This document shows, piece by piece, positions 1-46,422 of a DNA stretch of 64,000 nucleotides (position 1 is its first letter; each line of letters begins with the position of its first letter). Where the stretch lies: contig CALSFV010000153.1 of assembly GCA_943737045.1 (NCBI GenBank), forward strand, positions 27,262 to 91,261. Direction: 5' to 3'. The notes under the pieces were generated by a model. The model saw nothing but the letters and a program-made list of their open reading frames with translations. It had not been told where the DNA came from and made no database searches. Source of the DNA: Parapristionchus giblindavisi. Lineage: Eukaryota; Nematoda; Chromadorea; Rhabditida; Diplogasteridae. Position numbers and translations under genes: made by a program.

Positions 1-149
1 GAAAATGTATGCAAATCAAGTGGTACACTGTGAGTATATTAGGATCTTGGTTATCTTCGATTCACCATATCTACTCAGGTGTTTGAATCCATGCATGATT
101 CAAGTAAAATTCTTGCAATAAATGGCATGATCTAGCATGTAATACAGTG

Positions 150-701
150 ATGCACTTAAGCCTTTTCAATACGAAGAACGCTTTCCTCGCGACGTTGATT
201 CCCGGAGGCACAGCCCTGGCTGGAGCCGCTTTCCATATGACGAATAAGCAGACGGTCGACTGGTGGGAGGTTAGTGGACATTAGATCTTTGATCTTTGAT
301 CTCTATCACTAGGACGAGAGCTTGCAAATTTTGAGAAAGTTTTGGTGTTTATCTAATTTCTTCTATAACATGATATGTCATTCTTGGTCGTCTTCGGTGA
401 AGTTGTCAGCAGTGGGAAATTTCGCATTATTGTCGTCTTTATCTGCTTTTATTTGCTCGGAGACTGATTTTTTATGAGGGAAAAGGGGTTTTATTTCCTT
501 GATAGGAAATCTAGTAGATTAAAAAAGAATGTAACTTGTCCAATGATGATTTTCCCCGACCGCCGTCCACCATCCAATTACAGAAGCTCCGTAAGCCCAC
601 ATGGATCACTCCCAATGTGATCAAGGCCTCGTCTGTCGTAGACCTCGTCAGTGTGGCGCCCGTCGGATACGCCAGCTATCTGTGCTACAAGCACGGAGGA
701 G
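150..701 (+). pseudogene. tspo-1: tspo-1 5' fragment (coding exons 1 and 2)
   Basis: Translocator protein, a five-helix mitochondrial outer-membrane protein of the TspO/MBR family that binds porphyrins and sterols. Exon 1 (150-269, 40 codons) starts at an ATG two bases after a TACAG acceptor-like site. It reads through a first hydrophobic helix (FLATLIPGGTALAGAAF) to TVDWWE and ends in phase 0 before GTTAGT. Exon 2 (584-701) reads KLRKPTWITPN, the family's P-x-W-x-x-P signature after helix 1, then GYASYLCYKHGG of helix 2. The donor is GTACGG. No third exon (the N-W-x-W helix) follows. The intron runs into a 33-bp minisatellite, then a mariner relic, then inverted sequence, so the gene is cut off here. 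Family assignment is firm; an intact gene elsewhere is likely. Confidence 0.8.
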
Positions 702-702
702 G

Positions 703-912
703 TACGGTAGCTTATTTGGTGATGGAACTGAGGAGTACGGTAGTTTATTTGATGATTGAACTGAGGAGTACGGTAGTTTATTTGATGATTGAACTGAGGA
801 GTAGGGTAGTTTATTTGATGAGTGAACTGAGGAGTACGGTAGTTTATTTGATGATTGAACTGAGGAGGTACGGTAGTTTATTTGATAAATTAAACTGTGG
901 AAAACGGTAGTT
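703..912 (+). repeat. 33-bp minisatellite in tspo intron 2
   Basis: About six imperfect copies of a 33-bp unit beginning TACGGTAGTTTATTTGATGA and ending in CTGAGGAG lie directly after the exon 2 donor. Because 33 is a multiple of three the array is open (YLMIELRSTVV repeated), but this is a by-product of the unit length. Fragments of the same array lie at 18,545-18,640 and, inverted, at 32,930-33,010. It was therefore part of the ancestral tspo intron. Confidence 0.85.
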
Positions 913-1170
913 TATTTGATTATTAGCGTCTCATAGTCTCTCACACGCAAATATTAGGTTGAGTCATAAGTCTTGTCGCATTTTGGAGGGGTATGTTTGT
1001 GCCATCACTGCTCAGTCGTACGTTATCAATTACCCCGTCCGTTCTGGCACTAAATAAGTCACTACTACTACTATTTGAGCGTACTAGTGAATTGTGCCTA
1101 CGTCGAGTCTAGTAGCTGAAACGCCTCTTCAATTCGTTCCCAGTTTTGTGCACATATGAGACGTCATGTT

Positions 1171-1890
1171 GTTTTCTTCCTATTCTAGCTCAAACATCCC
1201 GATGTCCACATCCGTATGGCGGTAGTATACAACACTAAGGCCCCTAGTACGCGCACTGTGCAACATTGGTTCAAACCCTTCGAAGAAGGGAGTACGACGT
1301 CAAAGGTCCGGACGGCCCCCGAGCTGGACTTGGACGTGCTGGAGCATCACGTACAAGCGGACCCCTATGCTACCACCCGTGATATGGCTACGAGTCTTAG
1401 GGCAAGCTAACCCACCATCGTTGGTTGCCTACAGGATCTTGACAAGGTCCAGAATTTGGGTCGATGGTTACCCCTCCGACTGTCGGACAAGCAGAAGTGA
1501 AACCGTGCGGACCCGTGTCTGAAGTTAATTTCGTACGCTCGTACAACGGCTTGGATCGACGGGATCATGACTGGAGATGAAAAGTGGATCCCTTACGACA
1601 ACGTAGTCCTCCGGGCTCAGTGGATCGATCGAGATGAGCAGTCCAATTTCATCGCAAAATCCGAACTTCACCAGAAAAAGATCATGCTGTCTGAATGGTG
1701 GGGCAGAGGCGGTTTGCTGCATTGGGAGCTGCTCGCTCAGGGGTCGGCTATTATGGTCGCGGTATACTCTCGCCAACTACAGACCCTGAAGTCCAAGGAC
1801 CCCTCCGTTCCCTGGCTGCTCGACCGGATTCACTTCCAGCACGACAACGCCCGACCCCATGTGGCAAGGACGATCAAAAAGGCCCCTTAA
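1171..1890 (+). mobile_element. Mariner transposase relic in tspo intron
   Basis: Decayed mariner-type transposase. The N-terminal helix-turn-helix part (STRTVQHWFKPFEEG, near 1,243-1,290) resembles the TVQ-WF-F-EG motif of the family. It is followed by in-frame stops at 1,408 and 1,498. After that come MTGDEKWIPYDN (from 1,567, first catalytic D) and HDNARPH (second catalytic D, near 1,840). The third acid and the 3' end are missing: at about 1,890 the sequence passes directly into an AT-rich repeat. No terminal inverted repeat was recognised. A second, 5'-truncated copy of exactly this relic lies at 5,897-6,479, mirrored at 7,709-8,291. Confidence 0.85.
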
Positions 1891-2735: not shown

Positions 2736-2946
2736 ACCAATCGTTTGGAAAATACAGCATTTGTTCGGGAAAACCATCGATGACGAACCTTCGATCGAAA
2801 AATTCGAGAACTGGGTCTATCGTGAAAAACCCAATTTTAAGTGAAATGGATGCAGAATTGCTTAGGCTACAATACCTGGTCGAAAAACTCTGGAGCAAAC
2901 TACAACAAGGGATGATTTGTCCGAAAAAACCAAAATTTTGAGCCAA

Positions 2947-3268
2947 AAAAGAGGTTTAGGAATCTACGCACATACGATGCTAATAGTGAATTAGCAAGGT
3001 CTGTGCACCCTAGACGCATCGCAAATGATATTTGGAATTTATCTCAACAATTTGAGAAATTATGATTTTTAAACGTTTTTGCACTTAAATTAATTTTTCT
3101 AATAGCCTGAGGGCACAAACAGGAAATTTCTGCTGTTTTGTGTAATAAGGGCCGATGACACTCCTAACACCCAAGTATGGACCCCCAGCTCTCATTGCTA
3201 GCGCACGCGTCCGGGGGGTGGTCAGTATGATCGAGTCTTAGGGAACAGGCCTCTTAATCATTCACTCC
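2947..3268. other. No gene; cluster-specific flanking repeat
   Basis: No coding sequence is seen. This stretch (GGGCACAAACAGGAAATTTC, TAATAAGGGCCG, AAGTATGGACCCCCAG) recurs mirrored at 10,920-11,240, and again at 23,240-23,560 and, inverted, at 28,865-29,010. It travels with smn exon 7 or tspo exon 5, and is probably an old 3' flank of the duplicated unit. Confidence 0.6.
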
Positions 3269-5045
3269 TCATAGATCCTTCACGGGATCATTCTCCTTTT
3301 TGATCTGACGGATCATGTAAAGATAGAAGGCAGTCCACACCGCGTACTGAATCACCCAGTAACCCGCTGGTTTGTGGATCTGAAAGGAGAACATCAAAGA
3401 TCAAAGATCAACGATCAAAGACCAAAGACTAGAGATAACTGATCAATGTTTTCATATCAACTATCGATAACCTTTTTGGAAACCTTATTCCATGTAGATT
3501 CGCGTCAAGAAATCAAAATTAGAGAAAAATGGATTATGGTTAAGTGGTTCCCTTGTGAATTAATAATCAATATCTTAGATTCCTTACAGGAGCCCTGGAT
3601 GATCAGAAGGCGCGCCTCCGCTTCCGCCCATGCTCCGCCTCGACGCGCGTCCATTGCCGCGTTTCCGCGACGTCGACGCTACGATCGGCTCCTAACACGA
3701 AATATGATCAAATTGGAAATACGATTACGGTATCAATCGATAATCAACCAATCAATCAATACCTGCGGTGCGACAATCGTATTATCAGATTCTCCATCTT
3801 CGACGTAATCTTCCTCTCTGAAATCGAACAAAATATAAAAAAATATTCTGATTTTCTGATGTTAATCAATCAATAGAATTTTCCTAAATAAAATCAATAC
3901 ACTAACGGGTACAAGTCAGCGAAGGCAACGCTCTCGACATTCTCGTAGAAGTCAAAGCACACCTCGGCCGTGCCTGCTGCAGTGTCTACTCGCTGAAATC
4001 GATTGATATCGATCGATAACGAATAGATTACGGTATAAATGAGCAACGACTCACACGGATGACCGCAGGATACAGTAGATCCTCGTAGGGAGCGGTGCAA
4101 CGATCACCAATCGACCACTGAAACATATCCCCGCCTTCATTGTGTCAAAGAGTAAAAAATAAATAAATAATAATGACTTGTTAGAAATGCATCACAATTA
4201 AACCACCACCTTCATTGTCGAGAGAAAACGAACACTTGCGTCAAATTTAAGAACAAATTGGCGAAACAAAGTGTTGATTTTCGTCTTATTGTGTATTTTT
4301 ATTTTCTAAAGTGTTTTTACTTTAATGATGGTAGATTTTAATAAAACACAATAATCAATTAATGTGACAAACTTGAACACCCTTCGCTTCCTTAGCATTT
4401 TTGACAGAAGCAGCACCTTTTCCTGACCGTGCACCGATCGAATTCTGAATCAATAATTCGATAAAATCAATCAATAATTCAACTAAATCAATCAATAAAT
4501 CAATAACTAACATAGGCACTCGAGATGCTCTCTTCGTACATGCGAATGAGCGCTGTGTCGTCCCAGACCTCAGCCATATCAGACACGTTCGCTGAATCCT
4601 GCAACGAATCCTATTGATCATACGGTAGATCGATTAATCAATTGTCTTGAGGATCCAATCGTAATGTCATCAGTATTTGTACACATATAGTCGGTCTTCG
4701 TGCCTTATATCGAAAGCATTCTAATCATACATTTTCATACACTCATAAGGCGAGGATCGGCTCCACTAAATAGGCTCTTTTTTCCTAAATCGTCCCAACA
4801 TATTTCGAAATGACCAATTATACAAAAAATCTGTGAATCTGATCTATTTCTAGTCTGTTGTAATTTGTGAGGGCTCCGAAAATATATGATTCTAATGATT
4901 TATAAGGGGTCCGATATTGCTTCGAAATCGAAGAAAGATGAACCCCTACGTCAGTTATGAACAAGTTGAGACATTAATTCAACGTCTTTCAGATAACAAA
5001 AAATCACGAACAAAATACACCAACCCTTGTGAACACATTCGACAT
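3269..5045 (-). pseudogene. smn-1: smn-1 exons 1-7 joined to tspo exon 5 (left palindrome arm)
   Basis: Survival motor neuron protein, the core of the snRNP assembly complex, here chimeric. Exons on the minus strand: 5,045-5,025 (MSNVFTR), 4,598-4,512 (MAEVWDDTALIRMYEES, Gemin2-binding), 4,444-4,373 (GARSGKGAA linker), 4,117-4,055 and 3,992-3,907 (Tudor: WSIGDRCTAPYEDLLYPAVI, then TAEVCFDFYENV), 3,817-3,763 (acidic EEDYVEDGESD), 3,691-3,588 (basic SRKRGNGRASRR). The next acceptor belongs to tspo exon 5 (3,379-3,269, IHKPAGYWVIQYAVW to stop). Exon 7 has lost 7 nt relative to the copy at 34,539-34,649, so it ends in phase 2. Splicing to tspo would then stop after a few codons. Without that deletion the join would be in frame. 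The YG-box exon is absent. Confidence 0.85.
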
Positions 5046-5809
5046 CTTCGCTCTTTCTACAGTACTCTTCTGTTGAACTACAGTATCCTCAACTTCGACT
5101 ACAGTATCCCCTTCGGCTCCTACAGTATCCGAGTTCTGAGAACTTCCTTTCTGGAGCAGACCAATTAGCGTGGCAATAAACACTTTCGACTGAAATCGAA
5201 TCAATCGATAACCACATCTGATGTACCGTATTCCATTCAACCTTGTTCCATATAAAGTACGGTAGTCGTAGTCTGCTAACGACATCTTGGCACAACGAAC
5301 AATCGATAAATGATGATTTATTCAATACAAAATAATAATAATAATAAATCATTGTACAAAAGCATCCACCATTCACATCTCAAGCGGAAAGGAAGGGTTA
5401 CGGTATCGTAACCTAGAGACTATACAAATCAATCGATACTCAATAGAGTTACAAAATGAGGTACGAAAGAGTGGTTTTCTAATTAAAGGGAAAAGAAGAT
5501 ACTGAGGTAAGAAGATGGAAAACTTGTGGTTGGTTGTTAAAAATCAATATTAGAAAATGAAAATCATAATTAGTACAAAAAGGGGGCGGAGTCGAGGGAT
5601 GATGGCAATCGTGGTTGTTGAAATAGTAACATAGGAGGACGGAACGTGATGAGTGAAACTGAAAATGTATGCAAATCAAGTGGTACACTGTGAGTATATT
5701 AGGATCTTGGTTATCTTCGATTCACCATATCTACTCAGGTGTTTGAATCCATGCATGATTCAAGTAAAATTCTTGCAATAAATGGCATGATCTAGCATGT
5801 AATACAGTG
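5046..5809. promoter_or_regulatory. Divergent smn-1 / tspo-1 intergenic region
   Basis: About 765 bp separate the smn ATG (minus, 5,045) from the tspo ATG (plus, 5,810). On the smn side four TACTGTA heptamers lie exactly 21 bp apart just upstream of the ATG. A TTTCAG at about 140 nt upstream could be a trans-splice (SL) acceptor. On the tspo side a TACAG precedes the ATG by two bases. An alternative reading is an in-frame N-terminal extension of SMN beginning MSLADYDYRTLYGT at 5,285, which stays open in every copy. Both the shared promoter and the SL sites are inferences. Confidence 0.5.
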
Positions 5810-5896
5810 ATGCACTTAAGCCTTTTCAATACGAAGAACGCTTTCCTCGCGACGTTGATTCCCGGAGGCACAGCCCTGGCTGGAGCCGCTTTCCAT
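5810..5896 (+). pseudogene. tspo-1: tspo exon 1 fragment joined to mariner relic
   Basis: Identical to 150-236 (ATG to AGAAFH). It is then joined directly to the mariner relic at the position equivalent to 1,308, which removes 1,071 bp (end of exon 1, exon 2, the minisatellite and the transposase N-terminus). One base (T) is shared at the junction, consistent with end joining. The preceding 149 bp match window positions 1-149. Confidence 0.85.
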
Positions 5897-6479
5897 CCGG
5901 ACGGCCCCCGAGCTGGACTTGGACGTGCTGGAGCATCACGTACAAGCGGACCCCTATGCTACCACCCGTGATATGGCTACGAGTCTTAGGGCAAGCTAAC
6001 CCACCATCGTTGGTTGCCTACAGGATCTTGACAAGGTCCAGAATTTGGGTCGATGGTTACCCCTCCGACTGTCGGACAAGCAGAAGTGAAACCGTGCGGA
6101 CCCGTGTCTGAAGTTAATTTCGTACGCTCGTACAACGGCTTGGATCGACGGGATCATGACTGGAGATGAAAAGTGGATCCCTTACGACAACGTAGTCCTC
6201 CGGGCTCAGTGGATCGATCGAGATGAGCAGTCCAATTTCATCGCAAAATCCGAACTTCACCAGAAAAAGATCATGCTGTCTGAATGGTGGGGCAGAGGCG
6301 GTTTGCTGCATTGGGAGCTGCTCGCTCAGGGGTCGGCTATTATGGTCGCGGTATACTCTCGCCAACTACAGACCCTGAAGTCCAAGGACCCCTCCGTTCC
6401 CTGGCTGCTCGACCGGATTCACTTCCAGCACGACAACGCCCGACCCCATGTGGCAAGGACGATCAAAAAGGCCCCTTAA
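5897..6479 (+). mobile_element. Truncated mariner relic, second copy
   Basis: Same sequence as 1,308-1,890 with a constant offset of 4,589. It keeps the stops and the TGDEKW and HDNARPH blocks and lacks the N-terminal domain. The direct copy continues to 6,918 (equivalent of 2,329), where the palindrome turns round. Confidence 0.85.
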
Positions 6480-7708
6480 AGTCCGAAAATTTCAAAATTT
6501 TTCAAGTTTGAAATGTTTTCATTTATACGGCTTATTGTGAAGTACTAATGATGTGAATAATATTCAGCTAATGCTCAATGGCTGATCTCTCCTTTCAACC
6601 ATTTTTTGAAAATTTTCGTGCTGAATGCGTGCTAAAAATCAAAATTGTGCTTGAATCGGTTTCCAACTTGCTTTCTGTAACATTCTGTCATAGTACTTTA
6701 CAATGTACATAATCAATATGAAATTCGTTTATTTTCGAAAATTCAGTTTTTTTTTGCCATGACCAATGGGGTCATGGAAATCGATTTTTCAAAAGTGAGC
6801 CGAATGCTGGGATTTCTGTTCTACTATGTTTACTCGTCATGAAACTTCACATAATCATTGTCATTTGCTCGTTGTCACAGCATTCGAGTCGACAAACTGC
6901 AATATTTCAAAAATTTTCAGCCCATCACTTGGATCAATTTGAAAATTTCGATTTTCATGACCCCGGGGTCATGGTCGAAAATTTCAAAATTTCTCAAGTT
7001 TGAAATGTTTCCATTTATGTAGCTTGTTGTGAAGTACTAATGATGTGAATAATATTCAGCCAATGCTCAATGGCTGATCTCTCCTTTTAACCATTTTTTC
7101 GAAAATTTTCATTCTGATTGCGTGCGAAAAATCAGAATTGTGTTTGAATCGGTTTCCAACTGGCTCTCTGTAACATTCTGTCATAGTACTTTGCAATGTG
7201 CATAATCAATATGAAAATCGTTTATTTTTGAAAATTCAAAAAAATTCAATTTAAGTTCCTACTTTTTCGGAAAATTTTTGAAATATTGCAGTTTGTCGAC
7301 TCGAATGCTGTGACAACGAGCAAATGACAATGATTATGTGAAGTTTCATGACGAGTAAACATAGTAGAACAGAAATCCCAGCATTCGGCTCACTTTTGAA
7401 AAATCGATTTCCATGACCCCATTGGTCATGGCAAAAAAAAACTGAATTTTCGAAAATAAACGAATTTCATATTGATTATGTACATTGTAAAGTACTATGA
7501 CAGAATGTTACAGAAAGCAAGTTGGAAACCGATTCAAGCACAATTTTGATTTTTAGCACGCATTCAGCACGAAAATTTTCAAAAAATGGTTGAAAGGAGA
7601 GATCAGCCATTGAGCATTAGCTGAATATTATTCACATCATTAGTACTTCACAATAAGCCGTATAAATGAAAACATTTCAAACTTGAAAAATTTTGAAATT
7701 TTCGGACT
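6480..7708. repeat. Palindrome centre made of the AT-rich repeat
   Basis: No coding sequence. The left side (to 6,918) and the right side (from 7,270) are the inner ends of the palindrome arms. The spacer carries the palindrome CATGACCCCGGGGTCATG near 6,957. The spacer is the natural continuation of the right arm only, which marks the turn-round point at 6,918/6,919. Confidence 0.8.
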
Positions 7709-8291
7709 TTAAGGGGCCTTTTTGATCGTCCTTGCCACATGGGGTCGGGCGTTGTCGTGCTGGAAGTGAATCCGGTCGAGCAGCCAGGGAACGGAGGGGT
7801 CCTTGGACTTCAGGGTCTGTAGTTGGCGAGAGTATACCGCGACCATAATAGCCGACCCCTGAGCGAGCAGCTCCCAATGCAGCAAACCGCCTCTGCCCCA
7901 CCATTCAGACAGCATGATCTTTTTCTGGTGAAGTTCGGATTTTGCGATGAAATTGGACTGCTCATCTCGATCGATCCACTGAGCCCGGAGGACTACGTTG
8001 TCGTAAGGGATCCACTTTTCATCTCCAGTCATGATCCCGTCGATCCAAGCCGTTGTACGAGCGTACGAAATTAACTTCAGACACGGGTCCGCACGGTTTC
8101 ACTTCTGCTTGTCCGACAGTCGGAGGGGTAACCATCGACCCAAATTCTGGACCTTGTCAAGATCCTGTAGGCAACCAACGATGGTGGGTTAGCTTGCCCT
8201 AAGACTCGTAGCCATATCACGGGTGGTAGCATAGGGGTCCGCTTGTACGTGATGCTCCAGCACGTCCAAGTCCAGCTCGGGGGCCGTCCGG
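7709..8291 (-). mobile_element. Truncated mariner relic, mirrored copy
   Basis: Exact mirror of 5,897-6,479 within the palindrome, with the same stops and the same two catalytic-D blocks on the minus strand. It is not an independent insertion. Confidence 0.85.
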
Positions 8292-8378
8292 ATGGAAAGC
8301 GGCTCCAGCCAGGGCTGTGCCTCCGGGAATCAACGTCGCGAGGAAAGCGTTCTTCGTATTGAAAAGGCTTAAGTGCAT
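8292..8378 (-). pseudogene. tspo-1: tspo exon 1 fragment, mirrored
   Basis: Mirror of 5,810-5,896: ATG at 8,378 reading leftwards through FLATLIPGG to AGAAFH, then the mariner junction. Confidence 0.8.
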
Positions 8379-9142
8379 CACTGTATTACATGCTAGATCA
8401 TGCCATTTATTGCAAGAATTTTACTTGAATCATGCATGGATTCAAACACCTGAGTAGATATGGTGAATCGAAGATAACCAAGATCCTAATATACTCACAG
8501 TGTACCACTTGATTTGCATACATTTTCAGTTTCACTCATCACGTTCCGTCCTCCTATGTTACTATTTCAACAACCACGATTGCCATCATCCCTCGACTCC
8601 GCCCCCTTTTTGTACTAATTATGATTTTCATTTTCTAATATTGATTTTTAACAACCAACCACAAGTTTTCCATCTTCTTACCTCAGTATCTTCTTTTCCC
8701 TTTAATTAGAAAACCACTCTTTCGTACCTCATTTTGTAACTCTATTGAGTATCGATTGATTTGTATAGTCTCTAGGTTACGATACCGTAACCCTTCCTTT
8801 CCGCTTGAGATGTGAATGGTGGATGCTTTTGTACAATGATTTATTATTATTATTATTTTGTATTGAATAAATCATCATTTATCGATTGTTCGTTGTGCCA
8901 AGATGTCGTTAGCAGACTACGACTACCGTACTTTATATGGAACAAGGTTGAATGGAATACGGTACATCAGATGTGGTTATCGATTGATTCGATTTCAGTC
9001 GAAAGTGTTTATTGCCACGCTAATTGGTCTGCTCCAGAAAGGAAGTTCTCAGAACTCGGATACTGTAGGAGCCGAAGGGGATACTGTAGTCGAAGTTGAG
9101 GATACTGTAGTTCAACAGAAGAGTACTGTAGAAAGAGCGAAG
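8379..9142. promoter_or_regulatory. Mirrored divergent smn/tspo intergenic region
   Basis: Mirror of 5,046-5,809. The four TACTGTA heptamers start at 9,061, 9,082, 9,103 and 9,124, exactly 21 bp apart. They encode the heptads DTVGAEG, DTVVEVE, DTVVQQK and STVERAK in frame with the smn ATG. The possible SL acceptor GATTTCAG ends at about 9,000. Confidence 0.5.
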
Positions 9143-10916
9143 ATGTCGAATGTGTTCACAAGGGTTGGTGTATTTTGTTCGTGATTTTTTGTTATCTGAA
9201 AGACGTTGAATTAATGTCTCAACTTGTTCATAACTGACGTAGGGGTTCATCTTTCTTCGATTTCGAAGCAATATCGGACCCCTTATAAATCATTAGAATC
9301 ATATATTTTCGGAGCCCTCACAAATTACAACAGACTAGAAATAGATCAGATTCACAGATTTTTTGTATAATTGGTCATTTCGAAATATGTTGGGACGATT
9401 TAGGAAAAAAGAGCCTATTTAGTGGAGCCGATCCTCGCCTTATGAGTGTATGAAAATGTATGATTAGAATGCTTTCGATATAAGGCACGAAGACCGACTA
9501 TATGTGTACAAATACTGATGACATTACGATTGGATCCTCAAGACAATTGATTAATCGATCTACCGTATGATCAATAGGATTCGTTGCAGGATTCAGCGAA
9601 CGTGTCTGATATGGCTGAGGTCTGGGACGACACAGCGCTCATTCGCATGTACGAAGAGAGCATCTCGAGTGCCTATGTTAGTTATTGATTTATTGATTGA
9701 TTTAGTTGAATTATTGATTGATTTTATCGAATTATTGATTCAGAATTCGATCGGTGCACGGTCAGGAAAAGGTGCTGCTTCTGTCAAAAATGCTAAGGAA
9801 GCGAAGGGTGTTCAAGTTTGTCACATTAATTGATTATTGTGTTTTATTAAAATCTACCATCATTAAAGTAAAAACACTTTAGAAAATAAAAATACACAAT
9901 AAGACGAAAATCAACACTTTGTTTCGCCAATTTGTTCTTAAATTTGACGCAAGTGTTCGTTTTCTCTCGACAATGAAGGTGGTGGTTTAATTGTGATGCA
10001 TTTCTAACAAGTCATTATTATTTATTTATTTTTTACTCTTTGACACAATGAAGGCGGGGATATGTTTCAGTGGTCGATTGGTGATCGTTGCACCGCTCCC
10101 TACGAGGATCTACTGTATCCTGCGGTCATCCGTGTGAGTCGTTGCTCATTTATACCGTAATCTATTCGTTATCGATCGATATCAATCGATTTCAGCGAGT
10201 AGACACTGCAGCAGGCACGGCCGAGGTGTGCTTTGACTTCTACGAGAATGTCGAGAGCGTTGCCTTCGCTGACTTGTACCCGTTAGTGTATTGATTTTAT
10301 TTAGGAAAATTCTATTGATTGATTAACATCAGAAAATCAGAATATTTTTTTATATTTTGTTCGATTTCAGAGAGGAAGATTACGTCGAAGATGGAGAATC
10401 TGATAATACGATTGTCGCACCGCAGGTATTGATTGATTGGTTGATTATCGATTGATACCGTAATCGTATTTCCAATTTGATCATATTTCGTGTTAGGAGC
10501 CGATCGTAGCGTCGACGTCGCGGAAACGCGGCAATGGACGCGCGTCGAGGCGGAGCATGGGCGGAAGCGGAGGCGCGCCTTCTGATCATCCAGGGCTCCT
10601 GTAAGGAATCTAAGATATTGATTATTAATTCACAAGGGAACCACTTAACCATAATCCATTTTTCTCTAATTTTGATTTCTTGACGCGAATCTACATGGAA
10701 TAAGGTTTCCAAAAAGGTTATCGATAGTTGATATGAAAACATTGATCAGTTATCTCTAGTCTTTGGTCTTTGATCGTTGATCTTTGATCTTTGATGTTCT
10801 TTCAGATCCACAAACCAGCGGGTTACTGGGTGATTCAGTACGCGGTGTGGACTGCCTTCTATCTTTACATGATCCGTCAGATCAAAAAGGAGAATGATCC
10901 CGTGAAGGATCTATGA
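9143..10916 (+). pseudogene. smn-1: smn-1 exons 1-7 joined to tspo exon 5 (right palindrome arm)
   Basis: Mirror of the left-arm chimera. Exons: 9,143-9,163, 9,590-9,676, 9,744-9,815, 10,071-10,133, 10,196-10,281, 10,371-10,425, 10,497-10,600 (smn), then 10,806-10,916 (tspo exon 5, 36 codons plus stop). Donors and acceptors are canonical (GTTAGT, GTGAGT, TTTCAG, TTAG). The 7-nt deletion near 10,580 (GATCATCCAGGG instead of GATCACGGATCATTCCGGG) puts the smn-tspo junction out of frame. The tspo exon has changes (GYWVIQYAVWTAF) against the 19.9-kb copy (GYWMIPYAVWTGF). The 3' YG-box exon and the terminal exon are missing, so SMN self-association would be lost. Confidence 0.85.
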
Positions 10917-11449
10917 GGAGTGAATGATTAAGAGGCCTGTTCCCTAAGACTCGATCATACTGACCACCCCCCGGACGCGTGCGCTAGCAATGAGAGCTGG
11001 GGGTCCATACTTGGGTGTTAGGAGTGTCATCGGCCCTTATTACACAAAACAGCAGAAATTTCCTGTTTGTGCCCTCAGGCTATTAGAAAAATTAATTTAA
11101 GTGCAAAAACGTTTAAAAATCATAATTTCTCAAATTGTTGAGATAAATTCCAAATATCATTTGCGATGCGTCTAGGGTGCACAGACCTTGCTAATTCACT
11201 ATTAGCATCGTATGTGCGTAGATTCCTAAACCTCTTTTTTGGCTCAAAATTTTGGTTTTTTCGGACAAATCATCCCTTGTTGTAGTTTGCTCCAGAGTTT
11301 TTCGACCAGGTATTGTAGCCTAAGCAATTCTGCATCCATTTCACTTAAAATTGGGTTTTTCACGATAGACCCAGTTCTCGAATTTTTCGATCGAAGGTTC
11401 GTCATCGATGGTTTTCCCGAACAAATGCTGTATTTTCCAAACGATTGGT

Positions 11450-12439
11450 TAGAAGTCAAAGCACACCTCGGCTGTGCCTGCTACAGTGTCTACTCGCTGA
11501 AATCGATTGATATCGATCTTATTGATTGATTTTTTCATTTAATAAACATCTAGTTTACTTCATCTACTATTGGCTTGATATGAATGAATTGATTAAATAA
11601 ACATAGAGATACTAACTGTGGTCGAATCTATCGATAGCGAATAGATTACGGTATAAATGGGCAATTACTCACTCGGATGACCGCAGGATACAGTAGATCC
11701 TCGTAGGGAGCAGTGCAACGATCACCAATCGACCACTGAAAACATACTCATTACCCATATCACTGTCAAATCACAATTATTTCATTTTCAAGATCGTAGA
11801 TAAATTATTACTATTATACCCCCCCCCCCCGCCTTTATTGTGTCAAAGAACAAAAAAATAGTAAAGACTTGTTAGAAATGCATCACAATTAAACCTGTGT
11901 CAAATTTGCGAAAATATCGGCGAAACAAAATGTTGATCATCGCCTTTTTTATTTGAGTGATGACAGATTTTAATAAAACACAATAATCACTAAATGTGGC
12001 TAACATGAACACCCTTCGCTTCCTTAATTTTTTTCACCGGAGCAGCACCTCTTCCTGACCGTGCACCGATCGAATCCTGAATCAATAATTCGATAAAATC
12101 AATCAGTAATTCATCTTAATCAATCAAATCAATCAATAATTCATCTTAATCAATTAAATAAATCAATAAATCAATAACTAACATAGGCACTCGAGATGCT
12201 CTCTTCGTACATTCGAATGAGCGCTGTGTCGTCCCAGACCTCAGCCATATCAGACGCGTTCGCTGAATCCTGCAACGAATTCTATTCATCATACAGTAGA
12301 TCGACGGTAGATCTGAGAAATCGAAGAAAGATGAGGCAACGTCAGTTATGAACACGTTGAAACAACAAATCACCGTCTTTAAAATAAAATGAAGAAACCA
12401 CAAACAAAATGCACCCACCCTTGTGAAGACATTCGACAT
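11450..12439 (-). pseudogene. smn-1: smn-1 exons 1-5, truncated at the palindrome edge
   Basis: Third smn copy. Exons: 12,439-12,419 (MSNVFTR), 12,269-12,183 (DMAEVWDDTALIRMYEES), 12,076-12,005 (linker; last codon CAT instead of CAA/CAG), 11,735-11,673 (intact first Tudor exon), and 11,496 to about 11,450, where exon 5 breaks off after CFDF into the outer edge of the palindrome. Intron 4 carries extra sequence with a C10 tract at 11,821. The fragment is truncated and cannot encode a full Tudor domain. Confidence 0.85.
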
Positions 12440-13130
12440 CTTCGCTCTTTCTACAGTAATCTTCTGTTCAACTACAGTATCCTCAACTTCCACTACAGTA
12501 TCCCCTTCGGCTCCTACAGTATCCGAGTTCTGCGAACTTCCTTTCTGAAGCAGACCAACTAGAGTGGCAATAAACACTTTCGACTGAAATCGAATCAATC
12601 GATAACCACATCTGATGTACCGTATTCCATTCAAACTTGTTCCATATAAAGTACGGTAGTCGCAGTCTGCTAACGACATTTTGGCACAATGAACAATCAA
12701 TAAATGATGCTTTATTCAATACAAAAATAATAATAATAACTCATTGTACAAAAGCTTCCACCATTCACATCTCAAGCGGAAAGGAAGGGTTACGGTATCG
12801 TACCCTAGGAACTATACAAATCAATCGATACTCAATAGAGTTACAAAACGAAGTACGGAGGAGTGGCTTTCTAATTAAAGGTGAAAAAGAAGATACTGAG
12901 GTAAGAAGATGGATATCTTTTGGTTGGTTGTTAAAAATCAATATAAGAAAATGAAAATCTTAATTAGTACAAAAAGGGGGCGGAGTCGAGGGATGATGGC
13001 AATCGTGGTTGTTGAATCGGAAGCAGAGGAGGGCGAAACGAGATGAGTGAAACTGAAAAATATATGCAAATCAAGTGGTACACTGTCAATATATTATGAT
13101 CATCTCCATCTTAGATTCATCATTATCTTA
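12440..13130 (-). promoter_or_regulatory. Upstream region of smn copy 3
   Basis: Homologous to the smn side of the divergent intergenic region, including the TACTGTA heptamer block (third heptamer changed to TACAGTAATC on the plus strand) and the conserved ATTTGCATA tract near 13,065. It is followed by unrelated sequence, so no tspo gene is paired with this copy. Confidence 0.5.
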
Positions 13131-24463: not shown

Positions 24464-24605
24464 TAATATTCAGCCAATGCTCAATGGCTAATCTATCTTT
24501 TTTTCGAACATTTCCGTTCTGAATGCGTGCGAAAAATCAGAATTGTGATTGAATCGGTTTCCAACTTGCTTTCTGTAACATTCCGTCATAGTATTTTACA
24601 ATTGC

Positions 24606-33560: not shown

Positions 33561-35781
33561 CTACTTGTTACCTCTGAGATCCTGCATCGCCTGAAAATAA
33601 TTGCGAATCAGTTTTGGAAAAGATCAATTTCAGTTTGATGATTTATTGCTGCACTAAATCAACACGTGCGCCAATTCAACAAGTTTTTTATGCCAAACAA
33701 TATTCGTCCAATATCTAAATTTCTCATTTCATTCATTAGTTTTCTGTCAATAATAAGTCATTGCATCTTTATGACTCAACAATTGCATCTTTCCCGACAA
33801 GTCAACGGTGTTTGGTACTCTCACTAGCAACTGGTATGCCACTAGCAACTGGTATGCTTTACCTGATAGTATCCAGTGTGGTAGCCACTCATGTACCAGC
33901 TCATCAGCATGCTCGACAAGGCGTCATCCTCACTCGGACGTGGAAGACCAGCGAATGAAGGAGGAGGGGGCGGGGCCAGTGAGGGAATATGAAAATAGAG
34001 ATTATTGATTGATAGATCAGCGAATGAAGGAGGAGGGGGCGGGGCCAATGATGGAATATGAAAATAGAGATTATTGATTGATAGATCAGCGAATGAAGGA
34101 GGAGGGGGCGGGGCCAATGATGGAATATGAAAATAGAGATTATTGATTGATAGATCAGCGAATGAAGGAGGAGGGGGCGGGGCCAATGATGGAATATGAA
34201 AATAGAGATTATTGATTGATAGATCAGCGAATGAAGGAGGAGGGGGCGGGGCCAATGATGGAATATGAAAATAGAGATTATTGATTGATACACAAATATT
34301 GATTCAAAGTGTACATTGACAGAGATTCGATCAATTATTTTAAAGGAACACCCCGGAGATAATCTGAAGCTCTTCGATCTGGCAATGCTCTCTTGCTTTT
34401 CTACGAGTGTTGCCAGATCTGAGAGTAGTTCTGGTTCGCCTTTAATGTTGCATATGTGTAAACGTCATTTTTGAAAGACATTTCCTGTTATAAGACAAGA
34501 AAGAAACGAAGAAATAATCAAAATGGAAGATTCCTTACAGGAGCCCGGAATGATCCGTGATCAGAAGGCGCGCCTCCGCTTCCGCCCATGCTCCGCCTCG
34601 ACGCGCGTCCATTGCCGCGTTTCCGCGACGTCGACGCAACGATCGGCTCCTAGCACGAAATATGATCAATTGGATTACGGTATCAATCGATAATCAACCA
34701 ATTAATCAATACCTGCGGTGCGACAATCGTATTATCAGATTCCCCATCTTCAACGTAATCTTCCTCTCTGAAATCGAAAAAAATAGACTAATTTTCTGGT
34801 GTTAATCAATCAATAAAATGTGCCTAAATATAATCAATACACTAACGGGTACAAGTCAGCGAGGGCAACGGTCTCGACATTCTCGTAGAAGTCAAAGCAC
34901 ACCTCGGCTGTGCCTGCTGCAGTGTCTACTCGCTGAAATCGATTGATATCGATCTTATTGATTTATTTTACTCATTTAATAAACATCTAGTTTCCTTCAT
35001 CTACTGTTTGCTTGATATAAATAAATTGATTAAATAAATATACAGATACCAACCAAGTATAAGTTTACGACTATCTATACCAAACTAATTATGGAAGAAT
35101 CGATCGATAGTGAACAGATTACGGTACAAATGGGCAACGACTCACTCGGATTACTGCAGGGTACAGAAGATCCTCGTAGGGAGCGGTGCAACGATCACCA
35201 ATCGACCACTGAAAGACAAATTTAGTGAATCAATAGGCGTCGAGTTGATTTTGGTCACTTTAAAAATATTTTGATTTTCGTCATTTTAAAAATAGTGATG
35301 ATAGATTTTAATAAAACACAATAATCAATCAATGTGGCTAACCTGAACACCCTTCGCTTCCTTAGCATTTTTGACCGGAGCAGCACCTCTTCCTGACCGT
35401 GCACCGATCGAATCCTGAATCAATAATTCGTTAAAATCAATCAATAATTCATCTTAATCAATCAAATCAATCAATAATTTATTTTAATCAATCAATAATT
35501 CAACATAGTCAATCAATAACTAACATAGGCACTTGAGATGCTCTCTTCGTACATTCGAATGAGCGCTGTGTCGTCCCAGATCTCAGCCATATCCGATGCG
35601 TTCGCGGAATCCTGAAACGAATTCTATTGATCATACGGTAGATCGACGGTAGATCTGAGAAATCGAAGAAAGATGAGGCAACGTCAGTTATGAACAAGTT
35701 GAAACAGCAAATCAACGTCTTTCAGATAACAAGAAGATATCACAAACAAAATGCACCCACCCTTGTGAAGACATTCGACAT
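33561..35781 (-). CDS. smn-1: smn-1, most complete copy (all nine coding exons)
   Basis: Survival motor neuron protein. It oligomerises, binds Gemin2 and uses its Tudor domain to bind dimethylarginine tails of Sm proteins during snRNP assembly. Exons (minus): 35,781-35,761, 35,611-35,525, 35,414-35,343, 35,208-35,146, 34,932-34,847, 34,767-34,713, 34,649-34,539, 33,988-33,863, 33,590-33,561. Joined they give 216 codons and TAG, every phase matching. Layout: WDDTALI at 19-25, Tudor at about 61-110, acidic 110-128, basic SRKRGNGRASRR in exon 7, proline-rich 166-185, YG box [12 protein letters not shown] at 195-206, tail AMQDLRGNK. Defect: the YG-box exon is preceded by TTTTCAT instead of TTTTCAG, and no AG occurs across the adjoining 69-bp array, so normal splicing of that exon is doubtful. 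Skipping it would join exon 7 to the last exon in frame, giving an SMN without a YG box. Confidence 0.85.
33989..34264 (-). repeat. 69-bp tandem array of smn YG-exon 5' end, 4 units
   Basis: Boundaries at 33,988, 34,057, 34,126, 34,195 and 34,264 give four exact 69-bp steps. Each unit has about 35 bp of exon ([14 protein letters not shown]) plus the last 34 bp of the preceding intron (SINNLYFH when read through). With 69 = 3 x 23 there is no stop in the SMN frame, so the array is open into the YG box. The AG acceptor is AT in every unit. Confidence 0.92.
34343..34452. repeat. Palindromic hairpin MITE in smn intron 7
   Basis: Same intron position as at 16,620 and 44,848. Arms TTTAAAGGAACACCCCGGAG / GGTTCGCCTTTAATG and GATCTGGCAATGCTCTCTTG / GAGTGTTGCCAGATC. 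TTAA lies at both ends. Confidence 0.7.
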
Positions 35782-36430
35782 CTTCGCTCTTTCTACAGTA
35801 CTCTTCTGCTCAACTACAGTATCCTCAACTTCTACTACAGTATCGCCTTCGGCTCCTACAGTATCCGAGTTCTGCGAACTTCCTTTCTGGAGCAGACCAA
35901 CTAGCGTGGCAATAAACACTTTCGACTGAAATCGAATCAATCGATAACCACATCTGATGTACCGTAATCCATTCAAACTTGTTCCATATAAAGTACGGTA
36001 GTCGCAGTCTGCTAACGACATCTTGGCACAACGAACAATCGATAAATGATGATTTATTCAATACAAAAATAATAATAATAATAACTCATTGTACAAAAGC
36101 TTCCACCATTCACATCTCAAGCGGAAAGGAAGGGGTTACGGTATCGTAACCTAGGAACTATACAAATCAATCGATACTCAATAGAGTTACAAAACGAGGT
36201 ACGAGGGAGGGCTTTCTACTTAAAGGGAAAAGAAGATAACTTTTGGTTGGTTGTTAAAAATCAATATTAGAAAATGAAAATCTTAATTAGTACAAAAAGG
36301 GGGCAGTCGAGGGATGATGGCAATCGTGGTTGTTGAATCGGAAGCAGACGAGGACGGAACGAGATGAGAGTGAAAATGAAAAATGTATGCAAATCAAGTG
36401 GTACACTGTTAATGTATTATGATATTTCAA
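35782..36430 (-). promoter_or_regulatory. Upstream region of the full smn copy
   Basis: TACAGTA (TACTGTA on the gene strand) begins at 35,794, 35,815, 35,836 and 35,857, again exactly 21 bp apart. A possible SL acceptor CTGAAATC (GATTTCAG) lies near 35,930. The N-terminal extension frame (start at 36,021) is open here too. Further up, the region passes into a tspo 3' flank at about 36,430, so the divergent arrangement with tspo is lost. Confidence 0.5.
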
Positions 36431-36830: not shown

Positions 36831-37646
36831 CCCCTTTTTGATCTGAAGGATCATGTGAAGATAGAAGCCAGTCCACACCGCGTACGGAATCATCCAGTAA
36901 CCCGCAGGCTTGTGGATCTGAAAGGAGAAAGTAAAAGATCAAAGACCAAAGACTAGAGATCAATGTTTTAATACCAAATATCGACAACATTTACAAGGGA
37001 AGTCTGGTTGGCCGGTCCCGGACTTTGGGATGGGACATATACCATTCGATAGGTATCCGAAAAAGAAGACTTTTGACCATTTTGGGAGAATGCCCCGGGC
37101 GCAGAATTATTTGCATATTTCTACGGATTTTCGCTCTTCAATGAAACACATTCTCTGTGAGATCGAAAGCAAGCAGTGGTGAATAAGAGTGGTAAACAAG
37201 ACAAGCAATGGTGAACATGAAAATATTTCTTTTCTTTTTACTGATAAGAGGATGGTCTATATATCTTTTGCTTGCAAATACGATTCCCGCACAAGCTATC
37301 TCACAGAGACTGTGTTTCATTGTAGGGCGAAAATCCTGAGAAATATGCAAATAACTCTGCGCCCAGGGGCATTCTGTCAACATAAAAAGTCTTCTTTTTT
37401 CGGATACCTATCGAATGGTAAATGTCCCATCCCGAAGTCCGGGACCGGCCAACCTGACTTTCCTTGTTAGTAATGCAAATAGTGAAAAATGGCACCTTAA
37501 TCGTACAATATAATAATAAATTCCCATTGTTAATCAATAAATCGATAAATCAATAATCCATTCAGGATCAGAATCTACCGTACCTTGAAGAAGGCGACAG
37601 CTGCAGCAACTGCAGTGTCGTTTACGAGATACATGTTACGTGAGAG
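36831..37646 (-). pseudogene. tspo-1: tspo-1 exons 4 and 5, inverted, damaged
   Basis: Exon 4 (37,646-37,584) reads LSRNMYLVNDTAVAAAVAFFK. Exon 5 starts at 36,917 with IHKPAGYWMIPYAVWTGFYL, then HMILQIKKGSERM. The normal ENDPVKDL tail and stop are removed by a deletion. The intron between them contains a 460-bp foldback element. Confidence 0.8.
37000..37470. mobile_element. Foldback MITE in tspo intron 4
   Basis: Inverted arms of about 160 bp: GGAAGTCTGGTTGGCCGGTC at the left, GACCGGCCAACCTGACTTTC at the right, with GCCCCGGGCGCAGA / CTGCGCCCAGGGGC inside. No clear target duplication. Sequence inside the arms resembles the 57.2- and 60.5-kb arms (ATACCATTCGATAG), so the families may be related. 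Confidence 0.7.
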
Positions 37647-43001: not shown

Positions 43002-43637
43002 TTATCAACATAACAAAAAAATAATAATAAGAAAGTTACAATCGAACGACTGAATTATTGATATTGAAGACTATACATAACAAAAATATTAATAAGAAGG
43101 AAGTGATGATGATGATGTAAAACGGTTTTGATGCCCCATCGATTCATTCTTTTATTCTAAAGGTTAGAAAGATCAAAGACCAAAGATCCATCCTAATCAG
43201 CTTGTTTTCAACTAATGTCAAACGACCTTATGTTCATTATTCAATCTGTCTTATAGCGAAATTGCACAGTTTGCCTTATTTTTATTCTTGTCACTTTTTA
43301 AACATCATAAAGTAAATTAAATGCATATTCATCTACGAACATCACAGTGAATTTTTATCAACAGAAATCCAACAGAGAAAATGAATTAACTGAAGTCAGA
43401 TATTACAAACATAAAAACTAATTTTAAATTTTTGAATAAAAAAAAGATTGACGAAAAGGTTTTGATCGATTCAAGTCTTTTTATCAAACAACCTAGAACA
43501 AAATGCCAAAATTCGTCCAAGCGAAACCAAATACGGCCTTGATAAAAATTTGCGAGATACGTCAATAGAAATGGAATGATTGGACGATAGGTGAAGAGAA
43601 AGATCTTTGATCTTTGATCTTTGATCTTTTTTCCTGC
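43002..43637. other. smn 3' flank, inverted
   Basis: Conserved smn downstream region in minus orientation (TTGATCGATTCAAGTC, AATGATTGGACGAT and a GATCTTTG triple repeat at 43,600-43,627). No gene. Confidence 0.5.
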
Positions 43638-44061
43638 CTACTTGTTGCCTCACAGATCCTGCATCGCCTGAAAATAATTGCGAATGAATTTTTGTCGAGG
43701 CGAATTTCAGCCCGATGATTTCGTGCTGCACTAAATCAAAACCTGTGCCAATTCAACACGTGTTTTGTTTTTACGTCAATCACTGTTCGTCTAATTTCTA
43801 AATTTCTCCTTTCACTCAAAAATCTCAATATTATTCAGTCAACAATAATTCTTCTCAACATTTGCATCTTGCTCGACAAGTCAGCCGTGTTTGATAATCT
43901 CACTAGCACTGGTATGCCACTAGCAACTGGTATGCTTCACCTGATAGTATCCAGTATGGTAGCCGCTCATGTACCATCAGCATGCTCGACAAGGCGTCAT
44001 CCTCACTCGGACGTGGAAGACCAGCGAATGAAGGAGGAGGGGGCGGGGCCAGTGAGGGAAT

Positions 44062-44757
44062 ATGAAAATGGAGATTATTGATTGATAGACCAGCGAATGA
44101 AGGAGGAGGGGGCGGGGCCAGTGAGGGAATATGAAAATAGAGATTATTGATTGATAGACCATCGAATGAAGGAGGAGCGGGCGGGGCCAGTGAGGGAATA
44201 TGAAAATAGAGATTATTGATTGATAGACCATCGAATGAAGGAGGAGCGGGCGGGGCCAGTGAGGGAATATGAAAATAGAGATTATTGATTGATAGACCAG
44301 CGAATGAAGGAGGAGGGGGCGGGGCCAGTGAGGGAATATGAAAATAGAGATTATTGATTGATAGACCAGCGAATGAAGGAGGAGGGGGCGGGGCCAGTGA
44401 GGGAATATGAAAAAAGAGATTATTGATTGATAGACCATCGAATGAAGGAGGAGCGGGCGGGGCCAGTGAGGGAATATGAAAATAGAGATTATTGATTGAT
44501 AGACCAGCGAATGAAGGAGGAGGGGGCGGGGCCAGTGAGGGAATATGAAAATAGAGATTATTGATTGATAGACCATCGAATGAAGGAGGAGGGGGCGGGG
44601 CCAGTGAGGGAATATGAATATGAAAATAGAGATTATTGATTGATAGACCATCGAATGAAGGAGGAGCGGGCGGGGCCAGTGAGGGAATATGAAAATAGAG
44701 ATTATTGATTGATAGACCATCGAATGAAGGAGGAGGGGGCGGGGCCAGTGAGGGAAT
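44062..44757 (-). repeat. 69-bp tandem array of smn YG-exon 5' end, 10 units
   Basis: Ten extra units follow the exon; nine are 69 bp and one has a 6-bp duplication (GAATAT). Units come in at least two types (CCAGCG...GGAGGGGG and CCATCG...GGAGCGGG) in a mixed order, which suggests multi-unit duplication steps. As in the 34-kb array, both the SMN frame and a second frame stay open. Confidence 0.92.
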
Positions 44758-44847
44758 ATGAAAATAGAGATTATTGATTGATTCATTAATATTGATTCAA
44801 AGTGTATATTTACAGATATTTACAAATATTCGATCTATTATTTTAAA

Positions 44848-44962
44848 GGCACGCCCCGGAGCTAATTTGCAACAGTCCGATCTGGCAATGCTCTCTCGTT
44901 TTCTTTGACTACGAGAGGGTGTTGTCAGATCAGGGAATAAAATTAGCTCGGGTGTTCAATGT
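44848..44962. repeat. Palindromic hairpin MITE in smn intron 7 (decayed)
   Basis: Arms TTTAAAGGCACGCCCCGGAG and TTAGCTCGGGTGTTCAATG, with GATCTGGCAATGCTCTCTCG / GAGAGGGTGTTGTCAGATC inside. Same position as in the other smn copies. Confidence 0.65.
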
Positions 44963-45734
44963 TACATATGCGTGAACTTCATATTGTAACACATTTCCCG
45001 CAATAATACTAGCAATAAATGTAAATAATAATCAATATCTTGTATTCCTTACCGGAGCCCGGAATGATCCGTGATCAGAGGGCGCGCCTCCGCTTCCGCC
45101 CATGCTCCGCCTCGACGCGCGTCCATTGCCGCGTTTCCGCGACGTCGACGCTACGCTCGGCTCCTAGCACGACATATGATCAATTGGATTACGGTATCAA
45201 TCGATAATCAACCAATCAATCAATACCTGCGATGCGACAATCGTATTATCAGATTCCCCATCTTCGACGTAATCTTCCTCTCTGAAATCGAAAAAAATAT
45301 ACTTATTTTCTGGTGTTAATCAATCAATAAAATGTCCCTAAAAATAATCAATACACTAACGGGTACAAGTCAGCGAGGGCAACGCTCTCGACATTCTCGT
45401 AGAAGTCAAAGCACACCTCGGCCGTGCCTGGTGCAGTGTCTACTCGCTGAAATGGATTGATATCGATCGTATTGATTGATTTTTTTTTCATTTAATAAAA
45501 AATACAGATACCAATCAAGTCCCTAGCAAAATTATTCTTCTCTTAAAGATAAGGGAAATCCATCAATGATATCCTCACCTATGAGGGAAGAATTGCGTAA
45601 TGATATGCTGTGAGGGAATTTTTGCTCTGAGTACATTTACAAATTATGGTAGAATCAATCGATAATGAATAGATTACGGTATAAATTAGCAATGACTCAC
45701 TCGGATGACCGCAGGATACAGTAGATCCTCATAG

Positions 45735-46422
45735 CAGGGATGGGCGAAAAAGATTTGTCGTGTTCGTTTTTTTTTTCGTTTTTTTTCGACCCCTGACGAA
45801 AAATAGTTCGATCGAAAAAATTTTCGTCTTTCTCTGAAATTTTTCGAGTTTTACACTACATATTCGGGGAGTTCAAAAACAACGAAATAAAGGGGAAACG
45901 GGATGTTCAACTATAAAAAAAGGTACTTTCGAAAGAATTTAAAATCTTTTTTTTTCATACTGTATGTTTTCCACTCGAGAAATGATCTAGTTCTTACTGT
46001 ATTTTCACTTTTTTCTGAATCGATGACGAATGTTTTGTGGTTTACGAATTTACGAACATCTATCAGATGCAGGAAAAATTCATATGACCCTTCCCTGGAA
46101 GTATGGAAGCAGGGAGATTTTCTCTACTGCGGAAAACTCGCCTCTCTCATTCCTATTACGAATCGCTGATTTTTCTCAATGTCAATATTCCTCTCATGGG
46201 TTTCGTTTGAGGTCGAATTTACTTTTCTTATTGTTTCTTCCTCTTCCATATTTTGCCTAAAATAAAGAATGACTTTCGAGCTCAACGATTTTAACATTCT
46301 GAATTGCTTTAACAGTTAAATTGATTTTTTTTCTCGTTTTTTTTCGATTTTTTTTTCGAGGTTTTGAAACGAAAATTTTTCGTTTCGATTTTTTTTCGTC
46401 CGATCATGTTCGCCCATCCCTG
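45735..46422. mobile_element. Non-autonomous hAT-type element interrupting smn exon 4
   Basis: 688 bp with ends CAGGGATGGGCGAA and TTCGCCCATCCCTG, a terminus common in hAT elements. The interior is rich in TTTTTTCG runs with no transposase domain I can recognise. The flanks (CCTCATAG left, CTGGTAGG right) are not a clean 8-bp duplication, and smn sequence does not resume on the right, so a deletion followed insertion. Confidence 0.75.

Follow-up and report, generated by a model that had tools for sequence, protein, structure and literature searches.

SMN is an essential protein, and its gene is single-copy in model invertebrates. The locus described here raises the question of how exons of smn-1 and tspo-1 came to be intermixed many times in the nematode Parapristionchus giblindavisi. 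A preliminary description of the window (the whole stretch of 64,000 nucleotides that was analyzed, part of contig C153) had reported exons of both genes, with introns, scrambled in both orientations over positions 1-46 kb, and nine smn chains and eleven tspo pieces (ten in that description) were found there. One of the chains (21292-29783, plus strand) consists of two real pieces at 21.3-23.2 kb and 29.3-29.8 kb. The tspo count was obtained by tblastn after removal of low-scoring matches, of low-complexity matches and of matches between tspo exon Tb and another frame of the YG-box exon. The "nine-copy cluster" of the preliminary description has to be abandoned, since the window is the disordered margin of a larger smn/tspo array on three contigs, with at least 33 YG-box exons among the matches listed by the protein-level search.

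The identity of the two genes is not a matter of chance, because their Pfam matches lie above the curated cut-offs. An smn copy on contig C37 gave E-values of 8.7e-12 (SMN_YG-box), 6.8e-9 (SMN_G2-BD) and 6.5e-7 (SMN_Tudor), and window copy I scored similarly. Both encode the Gemin2-binding helix, the Tudor domain and the YG box in that order (PF20636, PF06003, PF20635). The array protein also matched SMN chains of the PDB, and its nearest relatives among the best 120 of 573 matches were Pristionchus proteins (50-53% identity), with which it has the exon boundary RAP|IPSLAP in common. Three joined tspo pieces matched TspO_MBR (PF03073) at 1.1e-11. The genome contains 351 exact SL1 leader exons, which identifies it as that of a nematode; the Rfam SL1 model gave no match among the 50 of 54441 candidates scored. 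In all chains read, each of the 212 pairs of neighboring exons is separated by an intron. Introns, splice sites and flanks were all copied, so that the smn/tspo block was duplicated and rearranged at the DNA level and not by retroposition, as had already been proposed.

The window begins with the upstream flank (1-236, minus strand) of an smn copy that adjoins it on the left (-4068 to -575) and possesses all nine exons; this flank recurs with 100% identity at 5661-5896 and 8292-8527. Exon chaining identified copy B at 3577-5085 (minus strand; S1-S7, S7 frameshifted near its end) and, together with repeat comparison, its palindromic twin B' at 9103-10611 (plus strand). Thus, two of the nine copies previously regarded as separate are the arms of one near-perfect palindrome. 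Copy C (11450-12479, minus) comprises S1-S4 and about half of S5 and is cut exactly at the palindrome edge. Copy D (15285-15869, minus) retains S2, a frameshifted S3, part of S9 and an S10 with an internal deletion, while copy E (16363-17089, minus) retains S9, preceded by a CAG acceptor, together with the end of S7. Copy F (21292-23152, plus; S1-S7, stop in S7) is followed by a LINE at 24579-27107 (Pfam RVT_1, 8.9e-37). Copy G (29083-29307, minus) comprises S7 and part of S6, and copy H (29298-29783, plus) part of S9 and S10; the segment 29297-30958, which holds copy H, is 97.4% identical to C37 119230-120870. Copy I (33538-35821, minus) has nine exons, an open frame and canonical splice sites except for the S9 acceptor, which is CAT. 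Copy J (43609-45734, minus) contains part of S4 and S5-S10, a CAT acceptor and a frameshift in S9. Hence, there is no fully canonical smn copy in the window, and copy I fails at one acceptor. The right limit of 46.4 kb holds for C153 but not for the array, which extends on C37 and C381; the flank at 54200-58400 lies outside the array and recurs almost unchanged close to the heads of both C153 and C381 (positions 4954-9156 in each).

The first tspo exon, Ta (LRKPTWITPN...GYASYLCYKHGGG), was located at 575-703 (plus strand) by tblastn and by the TspO_MBR match of the joined exons; 33-bp tandem repeats (696-924, TRF) follow it. Exon Tc lies beside smn copies B (3296-3379) and B' (10806-10889). 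Exons Tb and Tc occur together at 19651-20004 and 30863-31376 (both plus) and at 36831-37646 (minus; Tb 37584-37646, Tc 36831-36917), an inverted Tb at 31750-31812 (minus) and a Ta fragment with a stop at 33013-33054 (minus). In the sequence read, tspo is present as exon pieces only, and the tspo search of the genome revealed two places on C381 with three exons in order. In C. elegans, smn-1 (C41G7.1) presumably has tspo-1 (C41G7.3) nearby. The suggested origin from one ancestral head-to-head pair applies only to the first tspo exon, which is oriented away from the neighboring smn in the window (575) and on C37 (108.3, 159.3 and 262.6 kb). However, on C37 the final two exons of tspo are mostly co-directional with smn, and on C381 three tspo exons in order precede an smn copy of the same orientation.

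A search of the genome for further smn and tspo sequences, as recommended in the preliminary description, listed matches on C37, C381 and C153 only, within 251 Mb. This holds for 144 of 144 smn matches at the DNA level, for all matches listed of the 158 found at the protein level and for 76 of 76 tspo matches (93 of 93 candidates scored). As the two smn searches scored 40 of 254 and 150 of 203 candidates, respectively, an smn copy elsewhere in the genome is conceivable. The Pfam profiles PF06003, PF03073 and PF04938 (Gemin2) matched nothing in the genome, which is not evidence of absence because short exons divide the domains between them and the controls for PF06003 and PF04938 were silent as well. 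C37, a single contig of 919 kb, harbors 23 of the 33 listed YG-box exons in an array of about 270 kb that is chiefly head-to-tail (24 of 27 chains with at least three exons are on the plus strand). Inverted, truncated and element-interrupted smn copies are interspersed among its direct repeats. Divergence from copy I ranges from 2 to 30 per cent, forming a series of ages. The chains read cover the window and portions of C37 and C381, largely below 240 kb on C37 and a minor part of C381.

From these data, the smn-1/tspo-1 neighborhood probably underwent a lineage-specific tandem amplification in this diplogastrid nematode, and the window would be the rearranged edge of the resulting array, in which a minority of copies is intact. 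We infer that unequal exchange between direct repeats enlarged the array and that inverted-repeat elements, the kind of sequence in which the palindrome centre sits, were sites of replication-based inverted duplication. A single SMN protein of 216 aa would be supplied by the minority of intact copies while the remainder decays.

The strongest competitor, to which we assign slightly less than an even chance, regards the array as a graveyard of pseudogenes with one or few functional smn genes, in which neither copy number nor splice variants play a role. It overlaps with the amplification reading, which adds old functional lineages and splice classes. Only three of the 15 nine-exon chains read have canonical splice sites throughout (C37:86513-90976, C37:144617-146988 and C381:101725-105414); the other twelve show splice-site defects, stops or frameshifts, and 34 of all 49 chains lack part of the exon set. 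Since the young copy sets are nearer neutrality (0.48 and 0.54; single pairs, with few changes, 0.24-1.20), many of the copies are just decaying, and the fragmentation of tspo in all sequence read fits this as well. On the other hand, 31 pooled copies gave a pS of 0.123 and a pN of 0.029 (pooled dN/dS 0.22), and the deep lineages, CAT-acceptor copies included, show pN/pS values of about 0.1-0.3. As their coding divergence is constrained, the old lineages were functional during much of their history. Unusual conservation was also seen in a block of 300-odd bases upstream of S1 (35782-36100, minus strand, in copy I), which is 93-97% identical among 24 copies, while identity falls to 83-87% beyond it. 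An upstream in-frame ORF is open in most of these 24 copies, and a coding extension of exon 1 was considered. It was rejected because stops interrupt the ORF in four copies, among them the clean copy C37:144617, and two further copies either carry it out of frame or have it replaced; the ORF is more likely a 5' leader than coding. The residues upstream of exon 1 resemble the N-terminus of Pristionchus proteins annotated as "partial".

Rather improbable is the alternative that the contigs are alternative haplotypes or mis-joins of a modest cluster and that the palindrome arose from reads folded back on themselves. The palindrome (2736-11449) has arms at 2736-6918 and 7270-11449, each containing smn exons S1-S7 and tspo exon Tc, which differ by no mismatch and three gaps in 4183 positions. 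Its centre (6918/6919) lies beside a mariner/inverted-repeat element; a mariner Transposase_1 domain (Pfam, query 1501-1887) has equivalent readings at 6090-6479 and 7709-8098. In the sequence examined, the junctions at the centre and at the right edge each occur once. Inverted copies that differ by indels only could have arisen very recently or could be artefacts of assembly. C153 and C381 gave equal scores to the query at 5-9 kb and are 98% alike at 20.5-22.2 kb, and the tail of C153 repeats its own head. Because left-flank sequence is common to both, C153 and C381 could be two haplotypes, and the copy number may be inflated accordingly. The concern about the assembly voiced in the preliminary description is justified in these two respects. 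By contrast, the predominance of C37 among the listed YG-box exons is hard to reconcile with a modest cluster, and the divergence between its copies is far above haplotype divergence or consensus error. Moreover, a scrambled copy recurs on C37 in diverged form: at 96, 222 and 280 kb, S1-S4 are inverted against S5-S10, with a coding divergence of 0.8-2%, and two of these copies match by 97.8% over 4.9 kb. Since the rearranged copies are themselves duplicated, scrambling is not due to assembly error alone. Two further palindromes on C37 (61-71 and 180-202 kb) were rejected as smn inverted repeats and belong to a long-TIR element family found on many contigs. Capture of smn and tspo by a mobile element with subsequent spread is highly improbable, for although mariner, LINE, inverted-repeat and large long-TIR elements lie among the copies, the listed smn and tspo pieces are confined to three contigs, unlike the long-TIR element with its relatives on many, and the copied blocks have no common ends that could be seen.

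A second feature that sets the copies apart is the acceptor of the YG-box exon S9, a one-letter change from AG to AT being present in about half of the readable exons (11 AG, 13 AT). In copy I, the CAT acceptor and the proline-rich start of S9 are part of an in-frame 69-bp tandem repeat of five units (33945-34290, minus strand), and the same unit occurs eleven times at 44018-44782 (minus; both TRF). No alternative in-frame upstream AG was found by eye in copy I or in C37:57843. The CAT copies are most likely hypomorphs, judging from their splice sites. They may still include the YG-box exon at a reduced rate, which is possible because C. elegans uses some non-AG acceptors; skipping would be in frame and would remove the YG box. 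In C. elegans, acceptors other than AG can function (Aroian 1993, as cited in PMC10946897 and PMC4991786), yet the cases described are AA and AC rather than AT, and one of them yields mostly mis-spliced transcripts (PMC4991786). The pN/pS of the YG exon is 0.08 in the AG and AT classes alike, and the labels switch four and six times on two trees; this similarity could result from gene conversion instead of selection. It is doubtful that the array is a natural counterpart, with many copies, of the human SMN1/SMN2 pair, in which selection keeps the weak-acceptor copies, even tandem-repeated ones, so that copy number and splicing would tune SMN dose or a YG-less isoform.

In human SMN2, exon 7 is skipped, the underlying change being an exonic C-to-T. 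The parallel to human SMN1/SMN2 drawn in the preliminary description is loose in structure: in place of the two human genes in a 500-kb inverted duplication at 5q13, the nematode has tens of copies and pieces, most of them in direct orientation. A closer resemblance, absent from that description, lies in the variation of the YG-box exon acceptor, since in both systems copies differ at a splice signal affecting a C-terminal exon. However, the human change is within exon 7, whereas in the nematode it is AG or AT in the acceptor before the exon carrying the whole YG box, as read from sequence alone. Both systems also place several smn copies in a duplicated region next to pseudogenes (for the human locus, PMC4785180). 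Ordinary tandem arrays formed by unequal exchange likewise contain direct repeats that range in age, incomplete copies and local inversions. The nematode array differs from them in that the gene amplified, which acts in snRNP assembly, is essential and present once in model invertebrates, and in that no smn copy was found outside the array among the matches listed. C. elegans and Drosophila possess one smn gene each (PMC2965752). Pristionchus and C. elegans smn-1 encode the same protein with Gemin2-binding, Tudor and YG-box regions, but three Pristionchus species have one SMN entry each among the best 120 of 573 matches; as entries are clusters at 90% identity, near-identical copies in Pristionchus are conceivable. 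The literature searched on smn/tspo or SMN copy number, of which subscription papers formed a small part, contained no description of an smn array in an invertebrate.

In human disease, the number of SMN copies and the splicing of the C-terminal exon are decisive. If the amplification reading is true, a nematode of the Pristionchus family with tens of smn genes and pieces would permit direct tests of how SMN copy number is tolerated or used, and the array would let the natural use of non-AG acceptors be tested.

A nine-exon smn gene model was read from the minus strand at window positions 33.2-36.6 kb and confirmed on a clean copy at C37:144617-146988 (contig C37), in which all junctions are GT...AG. 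Its exons, labelled S1 to S10 without S8, comprise 21, 87, 72, 63, 86, 55, 111, 126 and 30 bases and encode 216 amino acids plus a stop. Pfam searches revealed the Gemin2-binding, Tudor and YG-box domains of SMN above cut-off both in this copy and in copy I of the window; S9 holds a proline-rich stretch and the YG box. The tspo gene consists of three exon pieces which, when joined, matched TspO_MBR (1.1e-11, Pfam) and also translocator protein chains of solved structure.

The preliminary description had reported nine smn copies or fragments and ten tspo pieces in both orientations. A census leaving out low-scoring, low-complexity and other-frame hits reproduced the nine smn chains but yielded eleven tspo pieces (575-45734, both orientations), and the self-comparison that had been proposed revealed densely packed direct and inverted repeats over 1-46 kb. 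Every smn copy in the window carries at least one lesion. Copy I (33538-35821, minus strand) comes closest to intact: every exon is open and all splice sites are canonical save the S9 acceptor, which reads CAT, not CAG. Copies B (3577-5085, minus strand) and B' (9103-10611, plus strand) lie in the arms (2736-6918 and 7270-11449) of a palindrome. The arms align over 4183 bases with three gaps and without a single mismatch; the centre (6918/6919) adjoins an inverted-repeat/mariner element. Copy A, immediately left of the window, is the same as B over 2431 bases save one gap. Mariner transposase fragments sharing one reading were detected at three places, 1501-1890 (Transposase_1), 6090-6479 and 7709-8098, the last two in the palindrome arms. 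By domain search, a LINE whose long open reading frame contains endonuclease and reverse transcriptase domains (24579-27107, plus strand) separates the parts of smn copy F/H.

The window is the terminal 64 kb of contig C153 (91,261 bases), the genome comprising 251.4 Mb in 703 contigs. All 144 matches of a whole-genome search with 2.5 kb of copy I lie on C37, C381 or C153 (40 of 254 first-look candidates scored). The joined SMN protein gave 158, those listed lying on the same contigs (150 of 203 candidates scored), as did all 76 matches to tspo exons (93 of 93 scored). Among the matches listed there are at least 33 YG-box exons (C37 23, C381 5, C153 5) and at least 32 Gemin2-binding exons (21, 4 and 7, respectively). 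On C37 the matches span 34.8 to 303.6 kb. The sequence read for chain counts (C37:30-240 kb, three more C37 loci, two C381 loci and C153:17-91 kb) contains 49 smn chains, some with partial exons and one (F + H) spanning the LINE; five or more exons are present in 31 and all nine in 15. On C37, 24 of the 27 chains that contain at least three exons lie on the plus strand; most of the array thus runs head-to-tail, the window being a scrambled portion of it. The cluster is real and bigger than initially described. On C381, three tspo exons occur in order on the minus strand at 107148-109269 and again at 94368-96198; these are possibly complete tspo genes. C37 also harbors large elements (61292-71177 and 180539-201619) whose inverted repeats extend over kilobases (99.8-99.99%) and which have relatives on many other contigs.

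Full-length exons, canonical splice sites and a frame open to the stop occur together in three of the 15 chains with nine exons: C37:86513-90976, whose intron 4 carries an inverted-repeat insertion, C37:144617-146988 and C381:101725-105414. The S9 acceptor is the sole fault in three further chains (C37:57843, C37:154175 and window copy I). C37:134565 has a bad S9 acceptor and no stop, C37:162028 two bad acceptors and C37:110980 a bad S2 acceptor; in the remainder, exons are partial, the frame is broken by frameshifts or stops, or other sites are bad.

The acceptor could be read for 24 S9 exons and is AG in 11 and AT in 13. Values of pS/pN for S9 were 0.122/0.0093 in the AG and 0.097/0.0082 in the AT class. 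On the coding tree, with 21 labelled copies, the label changed four times (19 of 1000 shuffles gave as few or fewer), and on the S9 plus intron tree, with 24 labelled, six times (80 of 1000), indicating that the acceptor state is inherited in part and has in part been reshuffled, through conversion or recurrent change. In copies I and J (43609-45734, minus strand), the acceptor together with the S9 start is tandemly repeated in frame as a 69-bp unit, present 5 and 11 times, respectively; this was found in 2 of 13 AT and 0 of 11 AG exons, numbers too small to claim an association. Passages in PMC10946897 and PMC4991786 describe that C. elegans is able to use non-AG acceptors (AA and AC cases), and for one mutant acceptor a passage in the latter reports mostly mis-spliced transcripts. 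As S9 has 126 bases, its skipping would be in frame, with loss of the YG box. CAT copies could be either working hypomorphs or dead copies.

The nearest SMN proteins among the matches listed (120 of 573) were those of Pristionchus fissidentatus (53%) and P. pacificus (50%), both over the whole query; P. mayeri SMN was also close, with a local match of 15% only, followed by Haemonchus (41%) and Caenorhabditis (33-38%). A diplogastrid origin of the genome is thus probable. A 15-residue stretch spanning the S7/S9 junction is kept in Pristionchus. Three Pristionchus species have one SMN entry apiece among the matches listed, entries being 90% clusters. Upstream of S1, at window 35782-35930 (minus strand) and homologous places, an in-frame leader without its own ATG follows TTTCAG and encodes residues resembling the N-terminus of Pristionchus 'partial' SMN proteins. 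Exact matches to the SL1 leader exon numbered 351 in the genome (reversed control 0); among the matches listed, a regular array with a spacing of ~1.17 kb lies at C145:26-83 kb.

Is the scrambling an assembly error? At three C37 places (96, 222 and 280 kb), S1-S4 are inverted relative to S5-S10. Two of these match by 97.8% over 4.9 kb, and the coding sequences of all three are 0.8-2% apart. The rearranged copy was itself duplicated and then diverged, which is hard to explain by misassembly. For the window, 19 stretches were tested, some of whose points may be no true breakpoints: five (16530, 17050, 20046, 31079 and 36432) have a diverged C37 match across the tested point, one (33200) a weak C37 match (67%), five match solely elsewhere in C153, two of these solely in the palindromic twin, and eight, including the palindrome centre and right edge, have no match. 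C153 and C381 have a common stretch at 4954-9156 of both (4.2 kb tested, equal scores) and match by 98% at ~20.5-22.2 kb, directly ahead of their arrays. The common stretch recurs, shifted by 76.5 kb, in the right flank of the window; if this shift continues to the contig end, the head of C153 is repeated in its last 14.7 kb. The contigs may be neighbours in an unresolved repeat or may represent two haplotypes; summing copies over them therefore does not give a haploid number. A Zer-1-like leucine-rich repeat ORF lies in the right flank (56686-56961, minus strand), within a stretch also present near the C153 and C381 heads.

Other copies are 70 to 98% identical to copy I. Pooling the 31 copies that have at least 250 coding bases gave a pS of 0.123, a pN of 0.029 and a dN/dS of 0.22, constraint being strongest in S4 (0.05) and S9 (0.09) and weakest in S7 (0.52). 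Copy I and the clean C37 copy differ by 21 synonymous and 9 non-synonymous changes (ratio 0.13). Young copy sets gave ratios of 0.48 and 0.54, as expected for decaying copies, and single pairs, with few changes, 0.24 to 1.20. The identity range and the coding constraint argue that the array is old and that its deep lineages were working genes for much of their history. Most likely, smn and tspo underwent an old, lineage-specific amplification that is fed by a few intact copies while many others decay.
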